64,000 nt of DNA from Janthinobacterium saanense (GTDB lineage: Bacteria > Pseudomonadota > Gammaproteobacteria > Burkholderiales > Burkholderiaceae_D). Made by a program: the position numbers and the translations under genes. Below the pieces are notes generated by a model, which was not told the origin of the DNA, did no database searches, and saw only the letters and a list, made by a program, of their open reading frames with translations. Below, in pieces: positions 14,570 to 49,816 of the stretch (position 1 is the first letter of the stretch; each line of letters opens with the position of its first letter). The stretch is from NCBI RefSeq assembly GCF_014200675.1, contig NZ_JACHCI010000002.1, positions 434,001-498,000 of the forward strand, in the 5' to 3' direction.

Positions 14570-15841
14570 ATGCGCGAACTGCTCTATCTGACCCACCGCC
14601 TGCCGTATCCGCCCAACAAGGGCGACAAGATACGTTCCTGGCATATGCTGCAATACCTGAGCCGGCATTTCCGCGTGCACCTGGGTTGTTTCATCGACAA
14701 CGAAGAAGACTGGGAGCATACGCGCCGGGTGGCCGAACTGTGCGCCAGTACCCGCTTCATCGATTTGCGGCGCCATGCGGCCCGCTGGCGCGCCATGCAA
14801 GCGCTGCTGGCGCGCCAATCGATGAGCGTGCATTATTATCGCGACCCGCAGCTGCTGGCATGGGTCCATGATCTGCTGGCGGGCGGGCGCGTGCGCCATG
14901 CGCTGGCCTATTCCGGACCCATGGCCCAGTATCTCGACGGTGGCGCCGGCAGTGCCTTGTACCGCCTGATCGATTTTGTCGATGTCGATTCCGACAAATG
15001 GCGCCAGTACGCGGACAGCAAGCCCTGGCCTGTGTCGCTGCTGTACCGGCGCGAATCGCAGATGCTGTTGCAGTACGAACGCCATATCGCGCAGCAGTTC
15101 TCGGCCGCCAGCTTTGTCTCGCAAGCGGAAGCCACCCTGTTCCGCCAGTGCGCACCACTGGCGCGCCGCAAGACGGGGCATTTCAATAACGGCGTCGACG
15201 CCGCCTATTTTGCGCCCGGCCTTGCCTTGACCCCGGCACCGTACCCGGCCGGCGCGCAAGTGCTGGTATTTACGGGCGCCATGGATTACTGGCCCAATAT
15301 CGACGCCGCGCGCTGGTTCGTGCAGCAGATATGGCCCGCCCTGCGCTACCGCTACCCGGCACTGCTGTTTTATATCGTCGGCAGCCACCCGGCGGCACAA
15401 GTGCGCGAGCTGGCCAGGGTGCCCGGCGTGGTGGTCACGGGTACGGTGCCCGATATCCGGCCCTACCTCGCCGGCGCTACCCTGGCCGTGGCGCCCTTGC
15501 GCATCGCGCGCGGCGTGCAAAACAAGGTGCTTGAAGCCATGGCGATGGGCAAGATCGTGCTGGCTACACCGCAGGCGCTGGAAGGCATCGCCGCCCAGCC
15601 GGGGCTGGAACTGCTGCTGGCCCGCGACGAGATCGAGTTCATCCACCATGCCACGCGCGTGCTGCAGCAGCAGGCGCCGGAAAGCGCCATGGGCGCGGCG
15701 GCGCGGCAACTGGTGCTGCAAGACTACGATTGGGAACGCAATCTGCAAGGCCTGGGCGCCATGCTGGGCTTGCAGGCACAGGCGAACCCCGGCCACATTG
15801 TGCCGGCCGAGCAATTGCATCCCACGCGGGAACCATCGTGA
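14570..15841 (+). CDS. XrtA-associated glycosyltransferase (GT4, Stp1 type)
   Basis: A protein of 423 residues. The start at 14570 follows the FemAB stop by 2 bases and gives the family N-terminus RELLYLTHRLPYPPNKGDKIRS. The C-terminal GT-B domain includes VFTGAMDYWPNIDAARWFV near residue 225 and the nucleotide-sugar-binding region RGVQNKVLEAMAMGKIVLAT near 310. It should add a sugar from a nucleotide donor to the lipid-linked repeat unit. It overlaps the XrtA gene, whose GTG start lies in its last codons (GTGA). Confidence 0.9.
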   Translation: MRELLYLTHRLPYPPNKGDKIRSWHMLQYLSRHFRVHLGCFIDNEEDWEHTRRVAELCASTRFIDLRRHAARWRAMQALLARQSMSVHYYRDPQLLAWVHDLLAGGRVRHALAYSGPMAQYLDGGAGSALYRLIDFVDVDSDKWRQYADSKPWPVSLLYRRESQMLLQYERHIAQQFSAASFVSQAEATLFRQCAPLARRKTGHFNNGVDAAYFAPGLALTPAPYPAGAQVLVFTGAMDYWPNIDAARWFVQQIWPALRYRYPALLFYIVGSHPAAQVRELARVPGVVVTGTVPDIRPYLAGATLAVAPLRIARGVQNKVLEAMAMGKIVLATPQALEGIAAQPGLELLLARDEIEFIHHATRVLQQQAPESAMGAAARQLVLQDYDWERNLQGLGAMLGLQAQANPGHIVPAEQLHPTREPS

Positions 15842-17388
15842 GTGTGGAACCGGGCAGTGTCACCGCGCCGGCAAGGCTGGCCAAGGCGGCAGGCACGACA
15901 CTGGCTCCGCTGGCCTTGCTGGCACCGGCACTGCTGGCCATCGTACTGCTGTATCAGAGCACCTTCTGGTCCATGCTGGAACTATGGTCGCGTTCGCAGA
16001 CTTTTGCGCATGGCTACCTCATCGTTCCCATCAGCATCTGGCTGGCCTGGCGCCAGCGTCGCCGCCTGGCGGCCCTGCCGCCACAGCCGAACCTGGCAGG
16101 ACCGCTGCTGCTGGCCGGACTCGGCCTGGCCTGGCTGCTGGCCAATGCCGCCAACGTGCAAGTGGTGGAGCAATATGCGGCCACCGCCATGCTGCCGGCC
16201 TGCGTGCTGGCGATCCTGGGCTGGCCCGCCGTGCGCCTGCTGGCCTTTCCACTAGGCTATCTGTTCCTGGCCGTGCCGTTTGGCGAAGTCTTTATCGAAC
16301 CGCTGATCGATTTCACGGCCAGCTTTACCGTGGCCGCACTGCAACTGACGGGCGTACCCGTGTTTCGTGATGGCAGCAATTTCTTTTTACCCACGGGTAA
16401 CTGGTCCGTCGTCGAAGCATGCAGCGGCTTGCGCTACCTGATCGCCTCGCTGGCCCTGGGCGCCCTGTTTGCCCACCTCAACTGCCACAGCACGGGCCGC
16501 CGCCTGGCCGTTTTGGCCGCCGCGCTGGTGGTGCCCATCGTTGCCAACGGCGTGCGCGCCTATCTGATCGTCATGCTGGGCCATTTGAGCAATATGCGCC
16601 TGGCCGTGGGTCTCGACCACCTGATCTATGGCTGGCTGTTTTTCGGCCTGGTGGCGCTGCTACTGTTCTGGTTAGCCGCGCGCTGGCGCGAGCGGCCTCT
16701 TGCTGCCACGACGGCCGCAACACCAGCTGCCACATCCCGGCCAGCAGCCAGCATCAAGGCCGTGCTGGCCAGCCTGGCCATCGCCGCCCTGTGGCCAGGA
16801 CTGGCCTTGCTGCATCAGGATGACGCGGCTGCCGCCACGCCAGCCGCTACCCTGACCTTGCCCGCGCCACCCGGATGGCAGCAGCTGGCGGCGCCGCCGG
16901 CCTGGCGCGTCCCCGTCGCTGGCCATCCCATGTCATGGCTGGCCAGCTATCGCCAGGAGCCAGGCCAGGCGCAGGTCAGCCTGCAATTGTCCTGGTTTGC
17001 CCGGCAGGCGCCCGATGCGGAACTGCTGACGCACCAGGCCCACCCTTACGGCGAGCTCTGGACTTTACTGAAACACCAGAAACGCGAGGTCCAGGTGAAC
17101 GGGCGCAGCCTGGCCGTGCGCGAAGCGCTGCTGGCTCACGGCGGCGAGCGGTTGCTGGCATGGCGGCTGTACCGCCAGGGCGGCGTCGCCACGGCCGACC
17201 CGGTGCTGGTCAAGCTGCTGCTGGCCAGGGGCAAGCTGCTGGGCACGCGCCAGGATGGCGCCGACCTGATCATTTCCGCTACTTACGACGAACTGGCGCC
17301 GCCACCGCGCGCGCAGCTGCAGGCCTTCCTGCAGGCCGCCCTGCCCCTGATCGAACAGCGCTTGCAGGAGTTGCCGCATGGAAACTGA
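15838..17388 (+). CDS. xrtA: exosortase A fused to EpsI domain
   Basis: A protein of 516 residues. The GTG start at 15838 lies in a GTGA overlap with the previous gene. Residues 1-290 form a polytopic membrane exosortase with the cysteine/arginine/histidine triad: Cys195 in VVEACSGLRYL, Arg240 in NGVRAYL and His261 in LDHLIYGW. Residues from about 300 form a membrane-anchored EpsI-type domain. The enzyme is a transpeptidase-like sorting protease that cleaves C-terminal PEP-CTERM signals at the inner membrane. The fused XrtA-EpsI arrangement and the exopolysaccharide gene neighbourhood are the classic type A system. No PEP-CTERM substrate protein is seen in this window. Confidence 0.95.
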   Translation: MSVEPGSVTAPARLAKAAGTTLAPLALLAPALLAIVLLYQSTFWSMLELWSRSQTFAHGYLIVPISIWLAWRQRRRLAALPPQPNLAGPLLLAGLGLAWLLANAANVQVVEQYAATAMLPACVLAILGWPAVRLLAFPLGYLFLAVPFGEVFIEPLIDFTASFTVAALQLTGVPVFRDGSNFFLPTGNWSVVEACSGLRYLIASLALGALFAHLNCHSTGRRLAVLAAALVVPIVANGVRAYLIVMLGHLSNMRLAVGLDHLIYGWLFFGLVALLLFWLAARWRERPLAATTAATPAATSRPAASIKAVLASLAIAALWPGLALLHQDDAAAATPAATLTLPAPPGWQQLAAPPAWRVPVAGHPMSWLASYRQEPGQAQVSLQLSWFARQAPDAELLTHQAHPYGELWTLLKHQKREVQVNGRSLAVREALLAHGGERLLAWRLYRQGGVATADPVLVKLLLARGKLLGTRQDGADLIISATYDELAPPPRAQLQAFLQAALPLIEQRLQELPHGN

Positions 17389-30405: not shown

Positions 30406-30407
30406 GG

Positions 30408-36745: not shown

Positions 36746-37999
36746 ATGCGCGATATCCTCGTCACCCTCGTGATCCTTGGCTCCCTGCCCTTCATCCTGA
36801 AGTCGCCGGCGGTTGGCGGCCTGATGTGGGTCTGGGTCAGCGTCATGAATCCGCACACGCAGGCATGGGGTTTTGCCACCCATTTGCCGTTCGCCTTCAT
36901 CATCGCGATTGCTACCATGTTCAGCCTGCTGATTTCGCATGGCCCCAAAAGCCTGCCGCTGACTTCCGTCAGCGTGCTGCTGCTGATGTTTGTTGCCTGG
37001 ATGAATATCACCGCGCCGTTTGCGCTCTTGCCCGAGTCGTCCTGGGTGCAATGGAACAAGGTCATGAAGATCATGCTGATGAGCTTTGTGGTGATGATGG
37101 TGATACGCAAGCGGCAAGATATTGTGCGTCTGGTATGGGTGCTGGTCGGCTCGATCGGCTATTACGGCGTGAAGGGCGGCATCTTTACCATCCGCAGCGG
37201 CGGCACGGAGCGGGTCTGGGGGCCGGAGGAAACTTTCATCGGCGACAATAACTCCCTGGCCCTGGCCCTGATCATCACCATCCCGCTGATGTTCTATCTG
37301 CAGCAAAACAGCGACAAACGCTGGCTGCGCCACGGCTTGAGCGCCGCCATGCTGCTCTCGGCACTGGCCGCCCTGGGCTCGTATTCGCGCGGCGCGCTGC
37401 TGGCGATCGCCGCCATGTGCCTGTTCATGTGGATCAAGAGCGGGCGTAAAGTGGCGCTGGGTGCAGTGCTGTGCCTGCTCACGCCGCTGTTGCTGGCCTT
37501 CATGCCCGAGCGCTGGTCCGAACGCATGGAGTCGATTAACACTTACCAGGAAGACAGTTCCGCCCAGGGCCGATTGAACGCCTGGGAAATGGCCTGGAAC
37601 CTGGCGCGCGACCGTTTCCTGGGCGGCGGCTTCGACGTGTCCGATCCGGGCATCTTCGCCCGCTATGCGCCCAACCCCATGGATGTCCACGCGGCGCACA
37701 GCATTTATTTCCAGGTGCTGGGCGAACACGGCTTTGTCGGCCTGGCGATTTACCTGGCGCTGGGCATCGCCACCTGGCGCGCAGCCAGCGGCATCATCAA
37801 GCTGACGCGCAATGCGGCCGAGCTGCGCTGGGCGCTGGGCCTGGCGACGATGATACAGGCGAGCATGATCGGCTTTGCCGTGGGCGGCGCCTTCCTCAGC
37901 CTGCTGTATTTCGACATGCCCTATTATTTGATGGCCGTGCTGATCGCCACGCGCATCGTGGTCGAGCGGCAACTGCTGACGGGGAAAGTCCAGCCATGA
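36746..37999 (+). CDS. exosortase A-associated O-glycosylation ligase/polymerase
   Basis: A protein of 417 residues with about ten membrane helices. The N-terminus RDILVTLVILGSLPFILKSP and the segment WVWVSVMNPHTQAWGF are typical of the O-ligase-like family found in exosortase A loci. Further marks are FIGDNNSLALALIITIPL near residue 168, SYSRGALLAIAAMC near 212 and VHAAHSIYFQVLGEHGFVGL near 315. Related to O-antigen ligases, it may polymerise the exopolysaccharide or transfer glycans to proteins. The window holds a second, longer ligase-like protein at 2570, so division of labour is likely. It overlaps the deacetylase start (ATGA). Confidence 0.9.
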   Translation: MRDILVTLVILGSLPFILKSPAVGGLMWVWVSVMNPHTQAWGFATHLPFAFIIAIATMFSLLISHGPKSLPLTSVSVLLLMFVAWMNITAPFALLPESSWVQWNKVMKIMLMSFVVMMVIRKRQDIVRLVWVLVGSIGYYGVKGGIFTIRSGGTERVWGPEETFIGDNNSLALALIITIPLMFYLQQNSDKRWLRHGLSAAMLLSALAALGSYSRGALLAIAAMCLFMWIKSGRKVALGAVLCLLTPLLLAFMPERWSERMESINTYQEDSSAQGRLNAWEMAWNLARDRFLGGGFDVSDPGIFARYAPNPMDVHAAHSIYFQVLGEHGFVGLAIYLALGIATWRAASGIIKLTRNAAELRWALGLATMIQASMIGFAVGGAFLSLLYFDMPYYLMAVLIATRIVVERQLLTGKVQP

Positions 38000-38916
38000 G
38001 TCTGCCGACCCTGTCTATCCTGATCTACCACCGCGTGCTGGCCAGTCCCGACCCCTTGTTTCCCGGCGAAGTCGATGCCCGCCTGTTTGAACGCCAATTG
38101 ATGCTGCTGAAGCACTTTTTCACGCCGCTGCCGCTGCCGCAAGCCTTGCAGCGCTTGCAGGATGGCAGTTTGCCACCGCGCGCGGCCTGCATTACCTTCG
38201 ACGATGGCTACGCAGACAATGCGCAGATCGCCTTGCCGCTGCTGCAAAAACATGGCTTGCACGCGACTTTTTTTATTGCCAGCGCTTACCTGGACGGCGG
38301 CCAGATGTGGAATGACAAGCTGATCGAGACCGTGCGCCACGCTCCCGGCCCCAGCCTGGACTTGCGTCCGTGGGGCTTGGGGTGCCTGCCCGTTGCCAAG
38401 CTGGCGCAGCGCCAGGCCGCCATCGCCCAGTTGCTGGGCCAGCTGAAATACCTGCCGTTTGCACAGCGCGAGACCTTAGCCAGGCAAATCGCCAGGGCGG
38501 GCCATCAAACAGAGCTGATGCTGAGCGTGGAGCAATTACGCCAGCTGCAGCGGGCCGGCATGCAGATCGGTGCCCACACCGTCCATCACCCCATTTTGGC
38601 AGCGCTGCCCGATCACGCTGCGCAGCAGGAAATCGCCGCTGGCAAGGCCCAGCTGGAGCAGTGGCTGCAAACCCCGGTCACGCTGTTTGCCTACCCAAAT
38701 GGCAAGCAAGGCCGCGATTATGGCCCATGCCACGTGGAGATGGTCAAGGCGCTGGGCTTTACGGCGGCCCTGGCGACAGACTGGGGCGCCAGCCGGCCAG
38801 GTCCGGAACTGGACCTGTTCCAGCTGCCCCGCTTTACGCCGTGGGATCGAGGACGCTTGATGTTTCTGTGGCGCTTGCAGCAGAACCTGCGGCAACCGCC
38901 CCCGGGTGCAAACTGA
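37996..38916 (+). CDS. polysaccharide deacetylase family protein
   Basis: A protein of 306 residues. The NodB motifs are ILIYHRVL at the N-terminus, AACITFDDGYADN near residue 65 (catalytic/metal aspartates), HATFFIASAYLDGGQMW, GAHTVHHPIL near 195 (histidine ligands) and a C-terminal LFAYPNG. The order and length resemble PgaB/IcaB-like or exosortase-linked deacetylases. No cleavable signal peptide is obvious. It is translationally coupled to the O-ligase (ATGA). Its last 83 bases overlap the 3' end of the convergent AsnB-like gene, a long tail-to-tail overlap. Confidence 0.9.
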   Translation: MSLPTLSILIYHRVLASPDPLFPGEVDARLFERQLMLLKHFFTPLPLPQALQRLQDGSLPPRAACITFDDGYADNAQIALPLLQKHGLHATFFIASAYLDGGQMWNDKLIETVRHAPGPSLDLRPWGLGCLPVAKLAQRQAAIAQLLGQLKYLPFAQRETLARQIARAGHQTELMLSVEQLRQLQRAGMQIGAHTVHHPILAALPDHAAQQEIAAGKAQLEQWLQTPVTLFAYPNGKQGRDYGPCHVEMVKALGFTAALATDWGASRPGPELDLFQLPRFTPWDRGRLMFLWRLQQNLRQPPPGAN

Positions 38917-40747
38917 GCCATTGTTCCAGCATCATCAAGATCCACACCATGGTGCCGTGATAGGCCGGGTGTTCCTGCAGCAAGCGGCCCTGCAGATCGG
39001 ACAAAAAGGCGGGCCGCACGATGCCGCGCCGGCGCAGCTGAGTCAAATTATCGAAGGCAAAGTCGCGCAAACCCGCATGGCTGTGCAGCCACAGGCCGAA
39101 AGGCAAGCCAAAACCGTGCTTTTTCTTGTGCAAGATAGCGGGCGGCAAGGTGCCGGCCAGGGCCCGCTTGAAAAATGGCCGCAGCTGCATGCCGTCCAGC
39201 TTGTCGCCAGGCGCCAGGCTGGCCGCAAAGGCCACCATCTCGTCGTGCAGGAAGGGAAAAGCCGCTTCCACGCCGGCCAGCTCGCAAGCCTTGCGCACCT
39301 TGGGCAAGTCATTGTCGGCCAGGGTAAAGCGCATGTCCAGCGCCAGCAGTTGATTGATCTGGCTCAGCTTCAGATCTTGCCGCTGCCAGTACGCGCCATT
39401 CAGGCAACCGGGCGCCACGCCGGGATCGATGGTGTCGATAAAGCCGTCTTCCAGCACCGTGCGGTGGCCATAACACTGCAAGAGATTGTAGCTTTCCATG
39501 CGGGCCGGCAAAGGCAGGCTGGCTTGCTCGATATAACGGCGCACCTTCTCGGGCAACCGCCAGGGCCCGGTGTTCTGCGTGCGAAATAGCAGCGGCTCGA
39601 TGATGGCCTGGCGCAACATGGCCGGCAAGCGCTCATAGCGCGACAGCAAGGCCTGGCGCGCATAACGTTCGTTCCCGCCAAACAATTCATCGCCGCCGTC
39701 GCCGCCCAGCAAGCGCGTCACGCCATCTTCGCGCGCCATCTGCGCGCAATAAAAGGCGGGAATTGCCGAAGCGTTGCCAAACGGCTGGTCGAATGCGGCG
39801 GCGATTTGCGGGATCGCGGCCAGCACATCATCGGCCGTCACATAACGTTCATGGTGGATGCTGCCCGTGTGGCGGGCAGCCAGGCGCGCATAGGCCATTT
39901 CATCATAGCCGGGCGCATCGAAACCGATGGAATAGGTGCGTGCCGGCTGGCCAGTGACCTTCCCAACGATGGCGGCGATGCTGGAACTGTCGGTGCCGCC
40001 GCTGAGGAAAGAACCCGTGGTTTCCACCTCGCTGCCCAGGCTGCGTTCCACCGCCAGCCGCAAGATACGCAGGAATTCCTGCTGCCGGCGGGCAAAACTG
40101 GCGCCCCGCCTGCGCTGCGCTGTTTCCTTGAAGACCAGGTCCCAGTATTTCCCCTTGCACAGTTTACCAGCCTGCACATGCAAGTACTCGCCGGGCAGCA
40201 GGCGCTGCTGGCCCAGATACGCCGTGGCTGGGCCGGGCACCATGTGGAAGTACAGATAGTTGTACAAGGCTTGCGGATCAAGCGCACCGCGCACGGCCGG
40301 ATGGGCCAGCATGGCGTCGTGCGAAGAAGCAAAAAACAAGCCCTGCGCGTGGCTGACATAGCTGAGCGGATGCTGGCCAGCCCGGTCCACGGCCAGCAAA
40401 GCTGTCCCTGAAAATTCATCGAGGATGGCCAGTGCAAACGGGCCGGACAGGGAAACGCAGGCAGCCACGCCCCGGCTCAGCCACAGGGGCGCCAGGCGCC
40501 GCGCCACCTCCAGGCCTGAGCCGTCCAGCTCGGGCCGGCCCCAGATGGCGAGCAGCAAGCCATCTTTCTGATACACATGGCTGGCGCCTGCACAGGCGGC
40601 CACGGCCACGGCACTGCCGTAGCCTGTACGCAGCTGTACCGGCACGCGGTCAAAGCGCGCCAGCGGTTCCGCCATCCTGGCCACCAGCTGTTCATTATCG
40701 GGCGCGGTATTGTCCTGCAGCGCCAGCCAGCCGCACAGGCCGCTCAT
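38834..40747 (-). CDS. asparagine synthetase-like protein with degenerate glutaminase domain
   Basis: A protein of 637 residues. The start at 40747 is fixed by the ATGA overlap with the decarboxylase and a GGAGG site. It begins MSGLCGW: the residue after Met is Ser, where the amidotransferase nucleophile should be Cys2. The HRGPD and FNGEIYN motifs are also missing (AIWGRPELD stands in place of the latter). The synthetase half looks intact: SGGTDSSS PP-loop near residue 255, GGDGGDELFGGNERYA near 345, and KKHGFGLPFGLWL near 570. It should therefore activate a carboxylate with ATP but not use glutamine, as in beta-lactam synthetases. It may form an amide with an amine made by the adjacent decarboxylase. 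That role is inference. Confidence 0.87.
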   Translation of the reverse strand: MSGLCGWLALQDNTAPDNEQLVARMAEPLARFDRVPVQLRTGYGSAVAVAACAGASHVYQKDGLLLAIWGRPELDGSGLEVARRLAPLWLSRGVAACVSLSGPFALAILDEFSGTALLAVDRAGQHPLSYVSHAQGLFFASSHDAMLAHPAVRGALDPQALYNYLYFHMVPGPATAYLGQQRLLPGEYLHVQAGKLCKGKYWDLVFKETAQRRRGASFARRQQEFLRILRLAVERSLGSEVETTGSFLSGGTDSSSIAAIVGKVTGQPARTYSIGFDAPGYDEMAYARLAARHTGSIHHERYVTADDVLAAIPQIAAAFDQPFGNASAIPAFYCAQMAREDGVTRLLGGDGGDELFGGNERYARQALLSRYERLPAMLRQAIIEPLLFRTQNTGPWRLPEKVRRYIEQASLPLPARMESYNLLQCYGHRTVLEDGFIDTIDPGVAPGCLNGAYWQRQDLKLSQINQLLALDMRFTLADNDLPKVRKACELAGVEAAFPFLHDEMVAFAASLAPGDKLDGMQLRPFFKRALAGTLPPAILHKKKHGFGLPFGLWLHSHAGLRDFAFDNLTQLRRRGIVRPAFLSDLQGRLLQEHPAYHGTMVWILMMLEQWLSLHPGAVAAGSAASATETSSVLDPTA

Positions 40748-41967
40748 ACCAGCACCTCCGCCGGCAAGGGATGGCTGAGGAAGGCGGTGGGGCTGGCCGT
40801 CAAGCCATACGCGCCCGACTGGAACACCACCACCAGGTCGCCCGTATCGGCCCGCGCCATTTCCATCTGGTCGGCCAGCAAGTCCAGCGGCGTGCACAGG
40901 GGGCCAACCACCGACGCCAGTTCGCGCTCGCCACCGTGCAGACGGTTGCCGATGGCGACCGGATAATTCTTGCGTATCAGCTGGCCAAAATTGCCGGATG
41001 CGGCCAGATGGTGATGCAGGCCGCCATCGGTGACGAGAAACACTTGCCCATGCGACAGCTTGCGTTCGATCACCTTGCACACATAGATGCCTGATTCCGC
41101 CACCAGATAGCGGCCCAGCTCGAGATTCAGCCGCGTGCCGGGCGAGACCGCCTGCAAGCGGTCCAGCTGGCGCTGCAAGCCGTCGGCCAGGGGCGCCAGG
41201 TCCAGCGCCTGGTCACCGGGAAAATACGGCACGCCAAAGCCGCCGCCGATATTGAGCACGCGCAAGGGGCCAGGCGCATGATCGGCCAGGCGCAAGGCCA
41301 GTTCCACGCTTTGCCCCTGCGCTTCGGCCAGGGCCGTGGCGCACAGGTTTTGCGAGCCCGTATAAATATGCAAGCCGTGAAACTCCAGCGCCATCTGCCG
41401 CAAACGGGCCAGCAAGGCCGGCACCTGCTCGGCATCCAGGCCAAACGGCTGCGCGCCGCCGCCCATGCGCATGCCGGCGCGGCGCAGGGAAAAGTCGGGA
41501 TTCACACGCACCGCCACCTTGCCCGCCACACCGAGCCGCTCGCTGGCCAGCGCCACTCTTTCCAGCTGGACCAGCGATTCCACATTGATCAGCACGCCAG
41601 CGGCCACGGCGCAAGACAATTCGCCATCGCCCTTGCCCGGCCCCGCAAAGCTGATGCGCTGCGCCGGCATGACGGTGTCGAGGGCGATGGCCAGCTCGCC
41701 GCCCGAGGCCACGTCGATGCCATCGACCAGGCCCGCCAGGTATTGCACCACGGCCGGCATGGGATTGGCCTTCATCGCATAATGCAAATGCACGCCGGCC
41801 GGCAGCGCGGCCCGCAAACCGGCCACGCGGCGCGCGATATGCTGGCGCTCATAGGCATAAAACGGCGTGCGGCCCACCCGCTGGGCCAGACGGACCAGCG
41901 GCAAACCACCGAGCTGCAGCATGTCGCCGGCCACGGCAAACTGCGTTTGCGGCGCATGCGCGATCAT
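40744..41967 (-). CDS. exosortase A system-associated PLP-dependent decarboxylase (fold III)
   Basis: A protein of 407 residues in the alanine-racemase-like barrel family of diaminopimelate and ornithine decarboxylases. HYAMKANP near residue 62 holds the PLP lysine, NIGGGFGVPY near 240 binds phosphate, and GPLCTPLDLLAD near 350 has the active-site cysteine and aspartate. HIYTGSQN lies where HIGSQ is usual. It should decarboxylate an amino acid or its carrier-bound form, giving an amine. The substrate is not predictable. It is coupled by ATGA overlaps to the ligase before it and the AsnB-like gene after it. Confidence 0.92.
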   Translation of the reverse strand: MIAHAPQTQFAVAGDMLQLGGLPLVRLAQRVGRTPFYAYERQHIARRVAGLRAALPAGVHLHYAMKANPMPAVVQYLAGLVDGIDVASGGELAIALDTVMPAQRISFAGPGKGDGELSCAVAAGVLINVESLVQLERVALASERLGVAGKVAVRVNPDFSLRRAGMRMGGGAQPFGLDAEQVPALLARLRQMALEFHGLHIYTGSQNLCATALAEAQGQSVELALRLADHAPGPLRVLNIGGGFGVPYFPGDQALDLAPLADGLQRQLDRLQAVSPGTRLNLELGRYLVAESGIYVCKVIERKLSHGQVFLVTDGGLHHHLAASGNFGQLIRKNYPVAIGNRLHGGERELASVVGPLCTPLDLLADQMEMARADTGDLVVVFQSGAYGLTASPTAFLSHPLPAEVLV

Positions 41968-43565
41968 GTGTGGTCTCCATGGGCGGCGGCCAGTTCCGCC
42001 GCCAGCAGCGGCCGGTCTATCTTGCCGTTCGGATTGCGCGGCAGGCAGTCGCCACGGATCACGATGTACACGGGCACCATGTAAGCGGGCAAGCGCAGGC
42101 GGCAGGCGGCCAGCAGCGCGTCGCGGCTCAGTTCCACGCCGGGGGCGGCCGTCACCAGCAAGGCAATCGCTGCACCCAGCACCGGATGCGGCACGCCGAG
42201 CGCCGCCGCTTCGCCCACCAGGCCGCTGGCATACACCACTTCTTCAACCTCGGCCGGGCTGACCCGGTAGCCCGAAGTCTTGATCATGTCGTCATTGCGG
42301 CCGACAAAATACAGATAGCCATCCGCATCGCGGCGCACCGTGTCGCCCGACCAGACGGCCAGTTCCGGCACCACCAGGCCCGCCGTCTGGGCCGGCAGCG
42401 GCTTGAAGCGCTCGGCCGTGCGCGCTGCATCGTTCCAATAGCCGAGCGCCACCAGCGCGCCCCGGTGCACCAGTTCACCGGGCTCGTCCGCCTCGCAGAC
42501 GCTGCCGTCCGGGCGCAGCACCAGCACTTCCGCATTCGGGATGGCCTGGCCGATGGAATCGGGCCGCCGCTCCAGCTGTTCCGGCGCCAGATAGGTGGAA
42601 CGGAACGCTTCGGTCAAGCCATACATCAGGAAAATCTGCGTGCGCGGCAACGATAAACGTAAATGCTCGATGGTAGAGCGCTGCATCGCGCCGCCCGAAT
42701 TGGTGATGTAGCGCAGCGGCGAAGACAAGGGCCAGCTCAGCTGCGACAACTGTATCCACAAGGGCGGCACGGCGGCCAGGCCCGTGATCGCTTCCTGTTC
42801 CACCGTTTCGATGATGTCGCGCAGCAGCAGATAATTCATCAGCACGGCGCAGGCGCCGCTGGCAAAGGCCGTCGTCAGCTGGCTCAAGCCATAATCAAAA
42901 CTGAGCGGCAAGACACACAGGATGCGGTCTTCCGGCGTATTGCGCAGATAGCTGGCAACGCTGAGCGCGCCGCTCACCATATTCCGGTGCGACAAGACCA
43001 CGCCCTTGGGCCGGCCCGTGCTGCCCGAGGTGTACAAAATGGCCGCCATGTCGGTATCGATCACGACGTGCGGCGCCATCGGGATATCGGCGCCGGCCGC
43101 CAGCAAGGACTTCCATGCCATGATGGGCAGCGCGCTGGCGGGCAGCTCATCATGGCCGGTCACAATAATCGTGCGCAAGTCCGGACAGGCCGCCAGCGCC
43201 GGCGCCAGCTGGGCCAGCCGTTCGCGCGAGGTGACCAGGATGCTGACGTTGCAATCGGCAAGTATGTAGGCTAGCTGCTGCGGCTTGAGCAAGGGATTGA
43301 CGGGGACGAAGACGCCGCCGGCGGCCGCCGCGCCAAACATGGCCGTCACATTTTCGGGACATTTTTCCAGGTAGACGGCGACTCTTTCCGCGCGCCGCAG
43401 CCCCAGGCTCAGCAAGGCCGAGGCGCAATCGCGCACGCGACGGGCCAGTTCTGTATAACTGAGCAGCTTTTCCTGGGACGGATAAGCAGCAGGATAAGAC
43501 AGCGCCGGCGTGCCAGGTGCGCGCTGCGCCGTCTCGAAAATGAAGTCGTGTAGTAGTGTCGCCAT
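41964..43565 (-). CDS. exosortase A system-associated acyl-CoA ligase (AMP-forming)
   Basis: A protein of 533 residues. The start ATG at 43565 gives ATLLHDFIFETAQRAPGTPAL. An in-frame extension of 40 codons looks non-coding. All adenylation core motifs are present: ILYTSGSTGRPKGVVLSH near residue 180, YGLTEAFRSTYL near 305, GDTVRRDADGYLYFVGRNDD near 400, KTSGYRVSPAEVE, and the lysine in RNPNGKIDRP near the end. It should form an acyl-adenylate and load CoA or, given the acyl carrier protein encoded on the other strand, a phosphopantetheine arm. It is first in the three-gene minus-strand operon. Confidence 0.92.
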   Translation of the reverse strand: MATLLHDFIFETAQRAPGTPALSYPAAYPSQEKLLSYTELARRVRDCASALLSLGLRRAERVAVYLEKCPENVTAMFGAAAAGGVFVPVNPLLKPQQLAYILADCNVSILVTSRERLAQLAPALAACPDLRTIIVTGHDELPASALPIMAWKSLLAAGADIPMAPHVVIDTDMAAILYTSGSTGRPKGVVLSHRNMVSGALSVASYLRNTPEDRILCVLPLSFDYGLSQLTTAFASGACAVLMNYLLLRDIIETVEQEAITGLAAVPPLWIQLSQLSWPLSSPLRYITNSGGAMQRSTIEHLRLSLPRTQIFLMYGLTEAFRSTYLAPEQLERRPDSIGQAIPNAEVLVLRPDGSVCEADEPGELVHRGALVALGYWNDAARTAERFKPLPAQTAGLVVPELAVWSGDTVRRDADGYLYFVGRNDDMIKTSGYRVSPAEVEEVVYASGLVGEAAALGVPHPVLGAAIALLVTAAPGVELSRDALLAACRLRLPAYMVPVYIVIRGDCLPRNPNGKIDRPLLAAELAAAHGDHT

Positions 43566-43684
43566 GGTTTTGTCCCTGTCTTTCAACCCTGTTACGGAGC
43601 ACCGGCAGACGGCCGCGCTCCCCGATGCCCAGGCAAGCTGCCCCATGCATCCCGCTATGATTGGGAAAAATGACAAGATCGACA

Positions 43685-43698
43685 TTGATTTTTATCAA
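43685..43698. promoter_or_regulatory. inverted repeat in the divergent promoter region
   Basis: TTGAT-TTTT-ATCAA forms a short perfect inverted repeat within the 236-base AT-richer region between the ligase and GNAT genes. It could be an operator shared by the two operons. No known regulator consensus is matched. Confidence 0.3.
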
Positions 43699-43801
43699 CT
43701 AAAACAGCAAGCGCGACAGCTTGAGACAACGCAACACTGACGCGCCCGGCTGCGCTCTAATGAATAGCGTAGCCTAGCCAGGCGCCTCCAGCGTAACCGC
43801 C

Positions 43802-44569
43802 ATGCCATTCAACACCGCACAACGCATCCGCAACAGCATCGCCGAACTGGGCTGGCGCGACAGCGCCTGGCACGCACTGGCGCGCTTGCTGCAGCGTGTG
43901 CCAGGGCAGCGCTGCGCCTTGCACCGCTATCAGTTCGTGGCGCAAGCCGTGGCGCCCGGCACCCTGTGCGGTGGGCGCGGCAAGTCTGTCGTGGTCACGC
44001 CGTGCGTGGATATCGAGACGCTGCCGCCCGCTTCGCAGCGTCCGCCACGTCCACCGGCCACCTTGCAAGCGCGTTTCCGCCAGGGCGCGCGCTGCCTGCT
44101 GGCCCACTCTTCACAAGCACCGCTGGCCGGCTGGCTATGGATGGTGCCCGGCGCCTGCCAGGAAGACGAGGTGCGCGCCCGTTACGTGCTGCCGTCGCCG
44201 CAATCGTCGTGGGATCTCGACGTATGGGTGCAGCCGGAACTGCGCGGCGGCCTGGTCTTCGCCCGCCTGTGGGAAGAAGCCAATACCGTGCTGCATGCAC
44301 AGGGAGTGCGCTGGTCGTGCAGCCGCATCTCGCGCTTCAACCTGGCCTCGATGGCCGCCCACGCACGTCTGGGTACGCTGGATCTGGGCACGGCGACCTT
44401 TTTGCGCTGCGGCCGCTGGCAATGGATGGTGGCCAGCCGGCCGCCCTATCTGCACCTGTCACGCCGGGCAGATAGCTTCCCCAGCTTCATTTTCGACACC
44501 AGCGGCTTGCCGCACATTCCTTCCCTGGAGCTGACATGCCGCATCCTGAAACAATCAACGACACCGTAA
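43802..44569 (+). CDS. GNAT-like protein, exosortase A system-associated
   Basis: A protein of 255 residues. The central and C-terminal parts (GWLWMVPGACQEDEVRARYVLPSP, VWVQPELRGGLVFARLWEEAN, SRISRFNLASMAAHARLG) fit a GNAT acyltransferase core, with the ...RISRFN...SMAAHARLG stretch like the region that follows the acyl-CoA binding loop. The canonical Q/RxxGxG/A pyrophosphate loop is not clear (PELRGGLV is the nearest), so activity is uncertain. It is first in a six-gene operon, and its last 34 bases overlap the acyl carrier protein gene. It may acylate an amine built by the adjacent pathway. Confidence 0.75.
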   Translation: MPFNTAQRIRNSIAELGWRDSAWHALARLLQRVPGQRCALHRYQFVAQAVAPGTLCGGRGKSVVVTPCVDIETLPPASQRPPRPPATLQARFRQGARCLLAHSSQAPLAGWLWMVPGACQEDEVRARYVLPSPQSSWDLDVWVQPELRGGLVFARLWEEANTVLHAQGVRWSCSRISRFNLASMAAHARLGTLDLGTATFLRCGRWQWMVASRPPYLHLSRRADSFPSFIFDTSGLPHIPSLELTCRILKQSTTP

Positions 44570-44805
44570 GCACCGCCGTCCAGCAACTGCTCTGCCTGAC
44601 CCTGGGACTGGGCACGCGGCCCCTGACGGCAGAAACGCCGCTGCTGGGCAGCTTGCCTGAACTCGATTCCATGGCCGTCATCAGCGTGATCGCCGCGCTG
44701 GAAGGCCAATTCGGCTTCGAGGTGGCCGACGACGAGATCCATGCGCGCCACTTCGCCACGGTGGGCAGCCTGAGCGATTTTGTCCGCGCCCGGCTGATGA
44801 CATGA
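44536..44805 (+). CDS. acyl carrier protein
   Basis: A protein of 89 residues with the ACP four-helix pattern. The phosphopantetheine serine is in LPELDSMAVISVIAALE near residue 42, followed by QFGFEVADDEI. No ACP synthase or phosphopantetheinyl transferase lies nearby, so a housekeeping one must modify it. It overlaps the GNAT-like gene by 34 bases and the first hydrolase by 4 (ATGA), so stoichiometric co-expression is likely. It probably carries the acyl or aminoacyl group activated by the ligase encoded on the other strand. Confidence 0.93.
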   Translation: MPHPETINDTVSTAVQQLLCLTLGLGTRPLTAETPLLGSLPELDSMAVISVIAALEGQFGFEVADDEIHARHFATVGSLSDFVRARLMT

Positions 44806-45692
44806 TGCGCGCTATACCTTCAAGCGCCAGCCTGCTGCCCTTCTTCCTGCCCGCCAGCGGCGGCCAGCGCTATTGTCTGCTGCACCTGCCTGCGCCTGAA
44901 TCGGGGCAAAAGAGGCCCTCGCGCGGCGGCATCGTGTACCTGCATCCGTTTGCAGAAGAACTCAATAAAAGCCGGCGCGTGGCGGCGCTGCAGGCACGCG
45001 CCTTCGCCGACGCCGGCTACAGCGTGCTGCAGATCGATCTGCATGGCTGCGGCGATAGCAGCGGCGACTTCTCCGATGCGCGCTGGCCCATCTGGCGCAA
45101 CGATGTGCACCTGGCCTGCGCCTGGCTGCAGCAAAGGGTCAGCGGGCCATTGACCTTGTGGGGCGTGCGCCTGGGCGCGCTGCTGGCGCTCGACATCGCC
45201 CGCCACCCGCCAGTGCCACTGGCCCGTTTGCTGCTGTGGCAGCCCGAGCTGGTGGGCCGGCGCAGCATGGACCAGTTCCTGCGCCTGCGCCTGGCTGCGC
45301 GCATGCTGGCCGATAACGGCCCGAAGGAAGCGGCTGGCCATGCGCGCGCGCAGCTGGCGGCCGGCCAGAGCATCGAAGTGGCCGGCTATACTTTGGCCCC
45401 CGAGCTGGTGCACGCCATCGACGACATCGATGCAGCCAGGCTGGCGCCCACGCTTCCCGTGTATTGGCTTGAATACGGCGCCAGCACCGGACCAAACACC
45501 TTGCCCGCGCCAGCCGCGCGCCTGGCCCAGCGCTGGCGCGACGAAGGCGCACAGCTGCAACTGGCAGTCTTCGGCGATGGCGCTTTCTGGTCCAGCGCAG
45601 AGATCATGGAATGCCCGCAACTGCTGCAGGCCACCCGCCAGTTGTGCGACGACTGGATGACTGAAGCGGGGAGCGTGCCGCATGGCCGATGA
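44802..45692 (+). CDS. alpha/beta hydrolase-like protein, exosortase A-associated (hydrolase 2 type)
   Basis: A protein of 296 residues with an alpha/beta hydrolase fold (YLHPFAEELNKSRR oxyanion region, LQIDLHGCGDSSG near residue 80). The nucleophile elbow reads GVRLG in LTLWGVRLGALLALD, with Arg where GxSxG would have Ser. The region where the catalytic His is expected reads GDGAFWSS, without His. It is therefore probably not a classical serine hydrolase and may be a binding or structural partner of the adjacent hydrolase. I recall a similar elbow in other members of the exosortase A hydrolase 2 family. It overlaps the next gene by 11 bases. Confidence 0.88.
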   Translation: MMRAIPSSASLLPFFLPASGGQRYCLLHLPAPESGQKRPSRGGIVYLHPFAEELNKSRRVAALQARAFADAGYSVLQIDLHGCGDSSGDFSDARWPIWRNDVHLACAWLQQRVSGPLTLWGVRLGALLALDIARHPPVPLARLLLWQPELVGRRSMDQFLRLRLAARMLADNGPKEAAGHARAQLAAGQSIEVAGYTLAPELVHAIDDIDAARLAPTLPVYWLEYGASTGPNTLPAPAARLAQRWRDEGAQLQLAVFGDGAFWSSAEIMECPQLLQATRQLCDDWMTEAGSVPHGR

Positions 45693-46527
45693 CCATCAAC
45701 AGACTCCTTGCCAGGAGCTGGCGCTGCGCTTCAGCTGTGGCGATGAAAAACTGATAGGCATCCTCAGCCTGCCGCGCACACCCGGCCCGCGCGGGGTGCT
45801 GATCGTCACGGGCGGGCCGCAATACCGGGCCGGCAGCCATCGCCAGTTCACCTTGCTGGCACGCAGGCTGGCGGCCCAAGGTTTTCCCGTGCTGCGTTTC
45901 GATTACCGGGGCATGGGCGACAGCGAAGGCCAGGTGCGCGACTACCGCAGCATCACCGGCGACATCGACAGCGCGCTGCTCCAGTTCTTCCATAGCGTGC
46001 CCGCGCTGCGCGAAGTGATACTGTGGGGACTATGCGATGGCGCCACGGCTGCCGCCTGCCATGCGCCACGCGACGCGCGCATCACAGGGCTGGTCTTGCT
46101 CAACCCCTGGGTGCGCAGTCCGGCCAGCCTGGCGCGCACCACCTTGCGCCATTATTATCTGCGCCGCCTGGGGCAAGGGGACTTCTGGCGCAAGCTGGCC
46201 GGCGGCGGTCTGCATTGGGCGGCCAGCCTGGCTACCCTGCGCAGCACGGCGGCCGACGCCGCACTGACCGAGGCCGAGCTGCCGCAGGCGGAGCTGTACC
46301 ACGCGCTGTGCCAGTTTCAGGGCAAGGTGTTCATCATACTGAGCGGAGAAGACCTGGGCGCCCGCGAATGGGACCAGCTGATCAAAACATCGAGTGCCTG
46401 GCGCACGCTGGCCAGCTGCGCGCCATGGCAGCACGCCCACATCGCTGGCGCCAACCATACCTTCGCCAGCGCCGCCTGGCGTGCCCAGGTCGAACACGCA
46501 TGCCTGGCCTGGATGCGCCCATGCTAA
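45682..46527 (+). CDS. alpha/beta hydrolase, exosortase A-associated (hydrolase 1 type, Cys nucleophile)
   Basis: A protein of 281 residues. TGGPQYRAGSHRQFTLLARRL near residue 33 and RFDYRGMGDSEG near 73 belong to the fold. The nucleophile elbow is GLCDG (near residue 115), with Cys in place of Ser, as in dienelactone hydrolase. Acid and base are probably Asp in SGEDLGAREW and His in GANHTFAS near 255. A thioesterase-like release of an acyl group from the nearby ACP is a reasonable inference. Start overlaps the preceding gene, and the stop overlaps the next start. Confidence 0.9.
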   Translation: MADDHQQTPCQELALRFSCGDEKLIGILSLPRTPGPRGVLIVTGGPQYRAGSHRQFTLLARRLAAQGFPVLRFDYRGMGDSEGQVRDYRSITGDIDSALLQFFHSVPALREVILWGLCDGATAAACHAPRDARITGLVLLNPWVRSPASLARTTLRHYYLRRLGQGDFWRKLAGGGLHWAASLATLRSTAADAALTEAELPQAELYHALCQFQGKVFIILSGEDLGAREWDQLIKTSSAWRTLASCAPWQHAHIAGANHTFASAAWRAQVEHACLAWMRPC

Positions 46528-47762
46528 AACGCGTCCTGATGATCGCCTATCACTACCCGCCGCTGCAGGGCGGCAGCGGCATCTTGCGCACCCGGGGTTT
46601 TGTCCGCCATTTACCTGCCCACGGCTGGCAGCCGCTGCTGCTGTGCCCCAGCCCCGGCGCGTATGGGCAAACAGGGGACATCGGCGCGGACCCGGCGATA
46701 GTGCACCGCAGCCTGGCGCTGGACGCGGGCCGCCATCTGGCGATCAGGGGCCGTTATCCACGCTGGCTGGCGCTGCCCGACCGCTGGAGCTCCTGGTGGC
46801 TGAGCGCCGTGCCGGCAGGCCTGCGCATGATCAAACAATACCAACCTGACGCGATCTGGTCTACCTACCCGATCGCCACCGCCCACCTGATCGCCCTCAC
46901 CCTGCAAAAACTCAGCGGCCTGCCGTGGATCGCCGACCAGCGCGACCCCATGCTGGACGATAGCGACAGCGGCGCGCTGTATCCGGCCGATCCGCGCCTT
47001 TACCGCATGCATGGCTGGATAGAACAGCGGATCGCGGCCGGCAGCGCCGCCATCGTCTGCACCACGCCGGGCGCGGTGCGCATGCACCGCCGGCGCCTGG
47101 CCCACGCGCGCTGCGTGCTGATTGAAAACGGCCATGACGAGGAAGACTACAGTAGCACTACACGGCCTGGTGACCGGCCCGGTGAGCGCTTCGTGCTGCT
47201 GCACAGCGGCGTGATCTACCCGTCCGAACGCGATCCGCAGCAGCTGTTCGCAGCGCTGGCCAGCTTGCAAGCACAAGGAGTGCTGGCGCCGCATAATTTC
47301 CAGCTGCTGCTGCGCGCCACCGGCCACGATGCCTGGCTGGCCAGCCTGCTCGTCAACTATGGCGTCACCGGCCTGGTCACGCTGGCGCCCTTGCAAACCC
47401 ATGCGGCCGCACTGCAGGAAATGCAAACGGCTGATGGTTTGCTGTTGCTGCAGGCCGCCAATTGCAATAGCCAGATACCCGCCAAGCTGTATGAATACCT
47501 GCGCTGCCGCCGGCCCGTGCTGGCTTTGACCGACCTGGCCGGCGACAGCGCGGCCAGGCTGCGTTTGTGCGGCATAACCACCATCGGCCAGCTGGACAGC
47601 GCCAGCGATTGCGCGCGCGCGCTGATGCATTTCATGACACTGGCACGCCAGGGCCAGGCACCGCTGGCCAGCGCCGCATCCATCGTCCAACAATCGCGGT
47701 CAGCCCGGGCCGGCGCCCTGGCCACGCTGCTGCATGAAGTTTGCCACCGGAGTCCGCCATGA
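46521..47762 (+). CDS. glycosyltransferase (GT4-like)
   Basis: A protein of 413 residues. The start at 46521 overlaps the hydrolase stop (ATGCTAA). The N-terminus LKRVLMIAYHYPPLQGGSGILRTRGF is a GT-B acceptor-domain signature. The C-terminal half includes LLHSGVIYPSERDPQQLF and the nucleotide-sugar region CNSQIPAKLYEYLRCRRPVLA near residue 320, a variant of the EX7E site. It would add a sugar, probably one handled by the neighbouring acyl/amide pathway. A longer in-frame reading starting at 46023 lies over the hydrolase gene and is rejected. Confidence 0.85.
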   Translation: MLKRVLMIAYHYPPLQGGSGILRTRGFVRHLPAHGWQPLLLCPSPGAYGQTGDIGADPAIVHRSLALDAGRHLAIRGRYPRWLALPDRWSSWWLSAVPAGLRMIKQYQPDAIWSTYPIATAHLIALTLQKLSGLPWIADQRDPMLDDSDSGALYPADPRLYRMHGWIEQRIAAGSAAIVCTTPGAVRMHRRRLAHARCVLIENGHDEEDYSSTTRPGDRPGERFVLLHSGVIYPSERDPQQLFAALASLQAQGVLAPHNFQLLLRATGHDAWLASLLVNYGVTGLVTLAPLQTHAAALQEMQTADGLLLLQAANCNSQIPAKLYEYLRCRRPVLALTDLAGDSAARLRLCGITTIGQLDSASDCARALMHFMTLARQGQAPLASAASIVQQSRSARAGALATLLHEVCHRSPP

Positions 47763-48430: not shown

Positions 48431-49651
48431 TCAGCGGGCGACTGGCTTGACCTTCGATGCCGCCAGCACGGCACGTTCACGCGCCGTATCGATATCGTCG
48501 GCGGTGGCCAGCGCCACGCCCATGCGGCGGCGGGCGAACGATTCGGGCTTGCCGAACAGGCGCAAGTCGGCGCCAGGCACGCGCAAGGCTTCAGCCACGC
48601 CTTCGAAGGCGATGCCTTTTGCTTCCAGCTGGCCGTAGATGACGGCCGAGGCAGCCGGCGAGCGCAGCGCCACGTTGACGGGCAAGCCCAAGATCGCCTT
48701 GGCGTGCAGCTCGAATTCGCTTTGCAGCTGGCTGGCCATGGTCACCATGCCCGTGTCGTGCGGACGCGGGCTCACTTCCGAAAACCACACCATGTCGCCC
48801 TTGACGAACAGCTCCACGCCGAACAGGCCCAGGCCGCCCAGGTTGTCCGTCACCTTGCGCGCGATTTCGCGCGAACGCTCCAGCGCCAGCTCCGCCATGC
48901 GCGCCGGCTGCCACGATTCGACGTAATCGCCCTGCACCTGGCGATGGCCGATCGGCTCGCAAAACTGCGTCTCGATCTGGCCCGACGCACCGACGGCGCG
49001 CACCGTCAGCAAGGTGATTTCATAGTCGAAATCGATAAAGCCCTCGACGATCACGCGGCCCGAATCGACCCTCCCGCCGCTGGCCGCATAATTCCACGCC
49101 GTTTCCACGTCTTGCGGACCATCGAGCCTGGACTGGCCCTTGCCCGATGACGACATGACAGGTTTCACCACGCAAGGGAAACCGATTTCCTGGCAGGCGG
49201 TCTGCAATTCCTGCAAACTGCTGGCGAAGCGGTAGGGTGACGTAGCCACTCCCAGCTCTTCGGCGGCCAGGCAGCGTATGCCTTCGCGGTTCATCGTCAG
49301 CACGGCGGCGCGTGCGTTCGGGATGCAGGTGATCTGGCCAGCCGCTTCCAGCGCGGCCAGGGTGTCGGTGGCGATGGCTTCGATTTCCGGCACGATCAGG
49401 TCCGGCTTTTCCAGGGCGATCAGCGCAGCCAGGGCCACGCCGTCGCTCATGTCGATCACGTGCGAACGGTGCGCCACCGGATGGCCGGGCGCGTTCGGAT
49501 AACGGTCGACGGCGATCACTTCCACGCCCAGGCGCTGCAGCGAAATGATCACTTCCTTGCCCAGTTCACCGGAGCCCAGCAGCATGACTTTGATGGCGGT
49601 GGACGACAAGGGAGTACCGAAGGTGCGGGGAGTCTGGATAGCGTTGGTCAT
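48431..49651 (-). CDS. purT: formate-dependent phosphoribosylglycinamide formyltransferase
   Basis: A protein of 406 residues. The ATG at 49651 gives MTNAIQ. An extension four codons longer is possible. It is an ATP-grasp enzyme: [31 protein letters not shown] at the N-terminus, [15 protein letters not shown] near residue 155, and [17 protein letters not shown] near 285 with the metal-binding glutamate. It makes formyl-GAR from formate and ATP in purine synthesis. Unrelated to its exopolysaccharide neighbours. Confidence 0.95.
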
Positions 49652-49779
49652 GTAAACGATCATGGTGAACGAAGGATGGCCCGGACTATAACAAATGCAG
49701 GCCGCTTTGGGCAGGGTGCGCTCCTATCGTGTCCCCCTTGCCCGAGGTTCTTGCCAATTTGCTTAGTCAATGCAATAAT

Positions 49780-49794
49780 TGAGAATGATTCTCA
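49780..49794. promoter_or_regulatory. Fur box upstream of the FecI-type sigma gene
   Basis: TGAGAATGATTCTCA is a perfect 7-1-7 palindrome that matches the core of the Fur consensus. It lies 22 bases upstream of the sigma factor start. Iron-replete repression of the sigma/anti-sigma pair is the expected result. Confidence 0.8.
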
Positions 49795-49816
49795 GTTAAA
49801 GTCATACCCAAAGTCC

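Follow-up and report, generated by a model that had tools for sequence, protein, structure and literature searches.

A divergent set of seven genes (38834-46527) in a 64,000-nucleotide stretch of Janthinobacterium saanense DNA (contig NZ_JACHCI010000002.1, positions 434,001 to 498,000; hereafter the window) is predicted, with moderate confidence, to encode a line of enzymes that loads an acidic amino acid onto a stand-alone acyl carrier protein (ACP) and then decarboxylates it there. The window is part of a 6.1-Mb genome and carries an exosortase A (XrtA) exopolysaccharide locus, downstream of which the seven genes are located. In the first step, the ligase of family TIGR03098 would adenylate an acidic amino acid, L-aspartate being the likeliest, at its side-chain carboxylate and load it onto the ACP (44536-44805). 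In the second step, the pyridoxal phosphate (PLP) decarboxylase of family TIGR03099 would remove the alpha-carboxylate of the ACP-bound amino acid to leave an omega-aminoacyl thioester, which would be beta-alanyl-ACP if the substrate is aspartate or gamma-aminobutyryl-ACP (GABA-ACP) if it is glutamate. The evidence for these two steps is homology, conserved residues, a phylogenetic tree and co-occurrence across genomes; we infer the substrate, the order of reactions, the roles of the AsnB-like synthetase and the hydrolases, and the destination of the product. The original prediction, made from the sequence of the window, described the set as one module in which one carboxylate is activated, a separate amino acid is decarboxylated and the two are joined. 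The module holds, with the ACP at its centre, but this chemistry is probably wrong or too loosely drawn. The kinship of the two enzymes to BtrK and VinN, the residues of the ligase pocket and the co-occurrence of the ACP imply that the molecule activated and the molecule decarboxylated are the same amino acid on the ACP, so that the ligase and then the decarboxylase probably work on a single ACP-bound acidic amino acid, with beta-alanyl-ACP or a homologue as the product.

Predicted decarboxylation on the carrier protein

The top matches of the decarboxylase in the PDB are two entries for BtrK (257 and 256 bits), followed by diaminopimelate decarboxylase (149 bits). BtrK is described as acting on glutamate bound to the carrier protein BtrI, leaving GABA bound to BtrI (PMC7857480; this and the other articles below are cited from portions of their text). 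The LysA motif GP[VI]CE[ST]GD is replaced by GPLCTPLD in 80 of the 81 aligned family members and by GALCTPLD in the remaining one, and BtrK reads GPLCTPED at the same position. In a maximum-likelihood tree with ornithine decarboxylases as the outgroup, built from 76 rows (87 rows reduced to 79 distinct ones, of which the distant L196, L197 and L204 were excluded), all TIGR03099 rows and BtrK form a clade of 55 rows (support 97/87), the lysine-type enzymes form a separate clade of 17 rows (99/95), and the ornithine decarboxylases are likewise apart. Two sequences labelled BtrK-like by motif pattern (L179 and L195, both GPLCESGD) fall among the lysine enzymes in this tree. The TIGR03099 enzyme is probably an aminoacyl-ACP decarboxylase of the BtrK/VinO type; a role like that of LysA or in polyamine synthesis was rejected on the PDB ranking, the motif and the tree.

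Predicted activation of the amino acid

With the 210-residue core of the ligase that bears the substrate pocket as the query, the top PDB match is VinN (109 bits), and the next protein is the gramicidin synthetase LgrA (81 bits). With the full-length ligase, multidomain nonribosomal peptide synthetase (NRPS) proteins lead the PDB matches, and the best stand-alone enzymes are VinN and other beta-amino acid:ACP ligases; NRPS family models also match the ligase, below their cut-offs. The residues of VinN that read the amino and alpha-carboxyl groups of the substrate are Asp230, Ser299 and Arg331 (PMC7756342), to which PMC11253843 adds Phe231, Lys330 and a loop that is shorter by one residue. VinN activates the beta-carboxyl group of 3-methylaspartate; for BolO, the same reaction is proposed with aspartate (PMC7756342, PMC11253843). 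An Asp, a Ser and an Arg of the window ligase align with residues 246, 315 and 347 of the VinN chain, which should be Asp230, Ser299 and Arg331 on the assumption of 16 extra residues in that chain, a single offset that fits all three. The pocket could be counted in 71 of 81 sources, window included, the others having less than 80% coverage or falling under the score limit. Position 230 is Asp and position 331 is Arg in 71/71, position 330 is Phe in all 71, and position 299 is Ser in 56 or Thr in 15. Positions 231 and 299 change together, being Tyr/Ser in 56/71, the window ligase among them, and Ala/Thr in 15/71; this covariation suggests a second substrate for the Ala/Thr type, which may differ. 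Thus two pocket types are distinguished, D-Y-S-F-R (56/71) and D-A-T-F-R (15/71), the latter in Thauera, Accumulibacter, Mitsuaria and others, while the adenylase of locus L129, NRPS-like by motif, has DSGTV at its pocket. Conservation of both charged pocket residues would be unexpected in a ligase for fatty acids or an ordinary acyl-CoA ligase, and TIGR03098 is probably a VinN-type acidic-amino-acid:ACP ligase.

Co-occurrence across genomes and loci

Comparison of the gene set across genomes, which the original prediction had proposed as a check, was carried out on 150 genomes of the host's order, with counts that ignore relatedness. The decarboxylase (TIGR03099) exceeds its cut-off in 29 of the 150 genomes, the ligase is present at E ≤ 1e-120 in 28 (in 23 above the TIGR03098 cut-off), and both occur together in 27. 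XrtA exceeds its cut-off in 40 genomes, 24 with the decarboxylase and 16 without it. Hydrolase 1 is present in 22 genomes, 20 of which have the decarboxylase and all of which have XrtA above cut-off. The ACP was sought in 50 chosen genomes with a model made from 17 rows. Of the 29 decarboxylase genomes, 27 have a single match each (17 that had supplied the rows of the model and 10 that had not); the ACP is also found in 2 of the 16 XrtA-positive genomes without TIGR03099, and in none of five others. The residue counts given below for the hydrolases and the ACP are from single-pass searches, the hidden Markov models of a first pass having cross-matched other open reading frames (ORFs). In four genomes of genus g6 that lack XrtA (L053-L056), the ligase (below the TIGR03098 cut-off), the decarboxylase and the ACP are present, with no AsnB or hydrolase match in the fetched stretches and no hydrolase 1 genome-wide. 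Because of these genomes and the hydrolase 1 counts, the triad of ligase, decarboxylase and ACP looks like a unit of its own, with hydrolase 1 travelling with XrtA.

The arrangement was also followed by tblastn in other genomes of the order, in 29 stretches that surround the decarboxylase and are up to 20 kb long. The ligase is present in 25 of them, an AsnB and the ACP in 18 each, both hydrolases in 14 and the GNAT-like protein in 4; the ACP is divergent from the ligase in 13 of the 18 ACP-bearing stretches (hand count). Recurrence of the set in these stretches means that it is not a product of chance, in keeping with the claim that the genes form one module. Among 30 loci found with BtrK as the query, 19 have a VinN-type ligase ORF of at least 350 amino acids within flanks of about 1.5 kb, compared with 0 of 17 control loci of the lysine/ornithine type, which had slightly shorter flanks; five of the 30 belong to genomes that the set already contained (one being the window itself), so the comparison is not wholly independent. 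Loci cited by name come from the 80 top-ranked of 588 confirmed candidates and are therefore biased to close relatives; among them, the closest by decarboxylase are those of Janthinobacterium (81-82% identity in the best five loci). One genome (G029, L059:3881-11186) has a second divergent set consisting of a BtrK-like decarboxylase (40% identity), a VinN-type ligase (pocket DYTFR) and a GNAT-like protein, and in Nitrosovibrio and Nitrosomonas (L066, L068) the ligase-decarboxylase pair comes after genes of the EpsB, PrsK and PrsR types, as named by eye.

Proposed amide formation, release and transfer

The later steps and the polysaccharide destination are proposed with less confidence than the first two, on the basis of which catalytic motifs are degenerate or intact and of gene context. 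In the third step, an AsnB-like synthetase without glutaminase motifs would make an amide, most simply from an adenylated carboxylate and the new omega-amine. In the fourth, a Cys-Asp-His hydrolase with a partner that has no nucleophile would remove the acyl group from the ACP, and the GNAT-like protein, or acyltransferases encoded elsewhere, may pass it to an amino sugar, probably of the exopolysaccharide of the exosortase A envelope system.

Glutamine-dependent asparagine synthetase has an N-terminal glutaminase domain with Cys2 and the motifs RGPD and NGE, and the motif pattern of the paralogue described here is that of AsnB relatives, beta-lactam synthetase among them, whose amide formation needs no glutamine. 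The assignment of an AsnB-like synthetase stood as to the type of enzyme, since the ATP-binding motif SGGTDSS is intact, but not as to its glutaminase half, which lacks all three motifs (MCG, RGPD, NGE); the TIGR03108 member of the same window, used as a control, carries all three. The glutaminase motifs are missing in 33 of 34 aligned AsnB rows, window included (L118, one of the 33, is truncated at the N-terminus), and the 34th (L119), which has them, looks on this basis like a gene of the TIGR03108 type; SGGxDS is present in 34/34. With the glutaminase motifs lost and the synthetase motif kept, the AsnB paralogue probably uses an amine other than that of glutamine. It is not the known XrtA amidotransferase TIGR03108, because its 621-residue stretch scores 241 bits against a cut-off of 817 and the true member of that family is at 18573-20525 (1063 bits).

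Of the two hydrolases originally predicted, with release of the product assigned to a Cys-hydrolase, hydrolase 1 has its Cys, Asp and His each conserved in 23/23 aligned sequences, but hydrolase 2 has Arg in the position of the nucleophile in 27/27 and so lacks a nucleophile-Asp-His triad (both counts include the window and only sequences of at least 75% coverage). The predicted structure of hydrolase 1 (pLDDT 85) has Foldseek matches that are mostly generic esterases and lipases, with the thioesterase DcsB also among them, and so does not settle whether the enzyme is a thioesterase or an acyltransferase. The DSM phosphopantetheine site is present in 31 of 34 matched ACP ORFs. The GNAT-like protein has no Pfam or NCBIfam family match, yet its AlphaFold model (pLDDT 88) bears out the name that it had been given: the top Foldseek match is a protein of unknown function (3frm, E 7e-6), and the best match labelled as a GNAT is 7q3a (E 6e-5, TM 0.44), a remote likeness. 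In loci of Massilia and Noviherbaspirillum (L077:3418-5873, L079:5774-8025), a different GNAT/FemAB-like gene and a DegT-like aminotransferase gene, identified by eye, adjoin the ACP gene where the window has its own GNAT gene. The small number of sources with a homologue of the latter (given below) and its replacement elsewhere make the transfer step look exchangeable, and the ligase-ACP-decarboxylase core much less so.

Alternative interpretations

The family names TIGR03098 and TIGR03099 suggest a different reading, in which the polysaccharide is N- or O-acylated with a fatty or other simple acid that an acyl-CoA ligase has activated, and the decarboxylase separately makes a free amine (a diamine or one of the lysine type). 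Acyl-CoA ligase models do give the ligase good scores (PRK06187 at 304 bits, short of its cut-off). The reading is distinctly improbable, given the invariance of the pocket Asp and Arg, the rank of VinN over acyl-CoA ligases among solved structures, the grouping of the decarboxylase with BtrK and away from lysine and ornithine enzymes, its lack of the CE[ST]GD motif of the lysine enzymes, and the co-occurrence of a dedicated ACP. If the ACP chemistry is as predicted but the amino acid is glutamate or a larger acidic one, the product would be GABA-ACP as in butirosin biosynthesis; BtrK itself acts on L-glutamyl-ACP, and the Ala231 and Thr299 of 15/71 ligases would open the pocket, such that this subgroup may differ. 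For the window ligase, however, the Tyr/Ser pocket is closer to the Phe/Ser of VinN, whose substrate, like the one proposed for BolO, is of the aspartate type, and the glutamate variant is unlikely. It is improbable, though a little less so than the acyl-CoA reading, that the module makes a small diffusible beta-aminoacyl amide and owes its position in an exosortase locus to co-regulation or history: known systems of this kind yield antibiotics or lipopeptides, and the XrtA-less g6 genomes keep the triad without a match to AsnB or the hydrolases in the fetched stretches, but no model for a polyketide synthase (PKS) or NRPS is above cut-off among the 40 window proteins scanned, every hydrolase 1 genome has XrtA, and a glycosyltransferase gene is coupled to the operon.

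Several observations weigh against the prediction of an ACP-bound acidic amino acid that is activated and then decarboxylated. The inner clade of BtrK and TIGR03099 (52 rows) has a support of 94/96, slightly below the mark of 95; BtrK is a long branch, and the tree program warns of further long branches. The full-length ligase places LgrA over VinN (243 versus 191 bits, with two LgrA adenylation domains summed), and its pocket is not identical to that of VinN, Lys330 being replaced by Phe and Phe231 by Tyr or Ala. The ligase is missing from two of the 29 decarboxylase genomes (G103, G128) and the ACP from two (G103, G082); conversely, TIGR03099 does not exceed its cut-off in G037, which has the ligase, the ACP and hydrolase 1, and G092 has the ACP and hydrolase 1 but neither a ligase at E ≤ 1e-120 nor TIGR03099 above cut-off. 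Misses are possible, since in many genomes no more than the 9 top candidates were scored for the ligase. No ligase ORF is next to the decarboxylase in 11 of the 30 BtrK-query loci, and a homologue of the GNAT-like protein was found in just 12 of 81 sources. XrtA above cut-off is absent from 5 of the 29 module genomes, which separates the core chemistry from the exosortase.

An extension of the predicted pathway is that beta-alanyl groups on the exosortase A exopolysaccharide, or on its lipid-linked precursor, offer free primary amines as the acceptor for PEP-CTERM proteins cleaved by XrtA. If true, such decoration would be the anchor that is so far missing from one class of exosortase systems, but the idea is highly doubtful, and the 16 of 40 XrtA genomes without the decarboxylase, together with the five module genomes without XrtA, would limit it to some systems only.

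Gene set and neighbourhood

All seven ORFs are intact in two divergent arms, and the tight coupling of the genes that had been noted was confirmed (Table 1): co-directional neighbours overlap by 4 nucleotides (ATGA) at the asnB/decarboxylase, decarboxylase/ligase and ACP/hydrolase 2 junctions, and by 34 (GNAT/ACP), 11 (hydrolase 2/hydrolase 1) and 7 nucleotides (hydrolase 1/glycosyltransferase) at the others. The glycosyltransferase gene that is coupled to hydrolase 1 in this way probably belongs to the operon, and the gap between the arms presumably houses the promoters of both. The convergent polysaccharide deacetylase and asnB genes overlap by 83 bp.

Table 1. Features of the gene set and its context in the window.
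Feature	Coordinates	Strand	Basis
Exosortase A, XrtA, with EpsI domain (context)	15730..17388	+	TIGR03109, 337 bits
Putative O-glycosylation ligase, exosortase A associated, TIGR03097 (context)	36746..37999	+	513 bits
Polysaccharide deacetylase (context)	37996..38916	+	PF01522
AsnB-like amide synthetase with degenerate glutaminase domain	38834..40747	-	637 aa, starts MSGLCGW; PF00733, 3e-74, on the 621-aa stretch 38837-40699
Fold-III PLP decarboxylase, TIGR03099, predicted aminoacyl-ACP decarboxylase	40744..41967	-	602 bits; BtrK best PDB match; tree; CTP motif
Adenylating ligase, TIGR03098, predicted acidic-amino-acid:ACP ligase	41964..43565	-	764 bits; VinN best PDB match of core; equivalents of Asp230/Ser299/Arg331
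Intergenic gap of 236 bp separating the arms	43566..43801		Coordinates
GNAT-fold acyltransferase	43802..44569	+	AlphaFold model and Foldseek
Stand-alone ACP with DSM phosphopantetheine site	44536..44805	+	PF00550; genome profile; best PDB match 2lki
TIGR03101 hydrolase 2, alpha/beta-hydrolase relative without nucleophile (Arg at elbow)	44802..45692	+	295 bits
TIGR03100 hydrolase 1, Cys-Asp-His alpha/beta-hydrolase	45682..46527	+	309 bits
GT4-like glycosyltransferase	46521..47762	+	PF13579; near hydrolase 1 in other loci too

Membership in exosortase A-associated families, claimed from the outset, is borne out for four of the seven proteins, which exceed the curated NCBIfam cut-offs of TIGR03098 (592 bits), TIGR03099 (478), TIGR03100 (168) and TIGR03101 (203); AsnB, the GNAT-like protein and the ACP are below every NCBIfam cut-off. 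The XrtA locus upstream encodes PrsT, an export protein, a chain-length determinant, a tyrosine autokinase, the XrtA-associated deacetylase and FemAB, as well as XrtA with its EpsI domain, three named XrtA-associated glycosyltransferases and the TIGR03108 amidotransferase. Within the locus, an 809-residue protein (21740-24169, + strand) fuses a GT4-type glycosyltransferase region (residues ~130-356) to a PaaK/CapK-like AMP-forming ligase region, of which residues 547-712 match NF045666 below its cut-off. The NCBIfam scan that gave no PKS or NRPS model above cut-off covered 40 window proteins, a subset of the ORFs up to 55.3 kb. Sigma-54 promoters of the Aquincola PEP-CTERM type, the sole promoter pattern scanned (TGGCAC-N5-TTGC, at most one mismatch), were rejected, there being 15 matches in the window against 12.1 expected and none in the 236-bp gap. 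Past a purT-like gene, an ordinary iron-uptake set (49460-53765, + strand) encodes a FecI-like sigma factor, a FecR-like regulator and a FauA-like TonB siderophore receptor. Elsewhere in the genome there is a second exosortase-like gene (G000:C18:48912-49691) that scores 130 bits, under the XrtA cut-off.

Relation to known systems

The Dlt system, consisting of the ligase DltA, the carrier DltC and the MBOAT protein DltB, resembles the module in bringing an aminoacyl group to an envelope polymer by means of a ligase and a carrier, but differs in that the module has a decarboxylase and that an MBOAT homologue is near it in just 9 of 109 fetched loci: seven of Janthinobacterium, Rugamonas and Oxalobacteraceae, L107 (beside the ligase) and L136. 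A Dlt-like MBOAT was thus rejected as an obligate partner on the evidence of the fetched flanks, and is optional at best. The window does contain a DltB-like MBOAT (30408-31943, - strand; PF03062, best PDB match DltB, TIGR04091 at 175 bits against a cut-off of 375), followed by a protein (29215-30522, - strand) that has no Pfam or NCBIfam match and is SGNH/DltD-like by eye. In butirosin biosynthesis, the ligase BtrJ is of another type and the acyl chain ends on an aminoglycoside; no XrtA locus is known there. The likeness lies in BtrK, the nearest solved relative of TIGR03099, and in the conversion of glutamate on an ACP to GABA-ACP (PMC7857480).

The vicenistatin enzymes VinN, VinL and VinO are, like the module, an adenylating ligase for an acidic amino acid, a stand-alone ACP and a PLP decarboxylase that acts on the ACP thioester (VinO being likened by its description); there, however, VinM aminoacylates the product, the acyltransferase VinK recognizes it and a type I PKS receives it (PMC11284099), whereas no PKS was found here, and the locus instead has exopolysaccharide genes, a Cys hydrolase and an AsnB that lacks the glutaminase motifs. 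The closest published logic to that of the module, by analogy, is the bolagladin route, in which BolO, BolC and BolN are described as a VinN-like ligase with Asp230/Ser299/Arg331, a free ACP and a BtrK-like decarboxylase and are proposed to make beta-alanyl-ACP from aspartate; a bolN deletion is not rescued by feeding beta-alanine, and unlike the module the route feeds an NRPS lipodepsipeptide (PMC7756342).

The TIGR03108 amidotransferase and the AsnB of the module belong to the same superfamily. In open-access literature, with subscription papers and preprints outside the scope of the search, neither a product of the module, as the original prediction had said, nor a report on the function of these exosortase-associated ligase, decarboxylase and ACP enzymes was found among the papers listed; the portions of PMC11340318 and PMC9850573 consulted do not mention the ligase/decarboxylase pair. 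Glycoconjugates of the Leptothrix sheath, considered as a precedent for the product, were set aside, since the papers listed on them offered nothing usable. A transposon screen in Rubrivivax found insertions in two of the three listed asparagine synthase genes (RGS1_10407, RGS1_10435) of a 75-kb polysaccharide region, which links AsnB-type genes to biofilm in that organism without saying which paralogue corresponds to the one here; the terms 'decarboxylase', 'acyl carrier' and 'AMP-dependent' are absent from the portion of text available (PMC3684757).

Implications for exosortase A systems

The module is real and conserved, and its predicted chemistry is of a known kind in a new setting. The families TIGR03098 to TIGR03101 have been named mainly for the company of exosortase A, and their names assign no specific reaction. 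If the prediction is true, two of them acquire specific, testable jobs, TIGR03098 as an acidic-amino-acid:ACP ligase and TIGR03099 as an aminoacyl-ACP decarboxylase, and a branch of AsnB proteins without glutaminase motifs is marked out as a sign of amide formation that does not use ammonia. Starter-unit chemistry of the antibiotic type would then be located in a surface-polysaccharide locus of bacteria of soil, water, nitrifying communities and sludge, and an omega-amino-acid unit, beta-alanine or GABA, would be predicted in or near the exosortase A matrix, as a substituent to be sought in biofilms and flocs.

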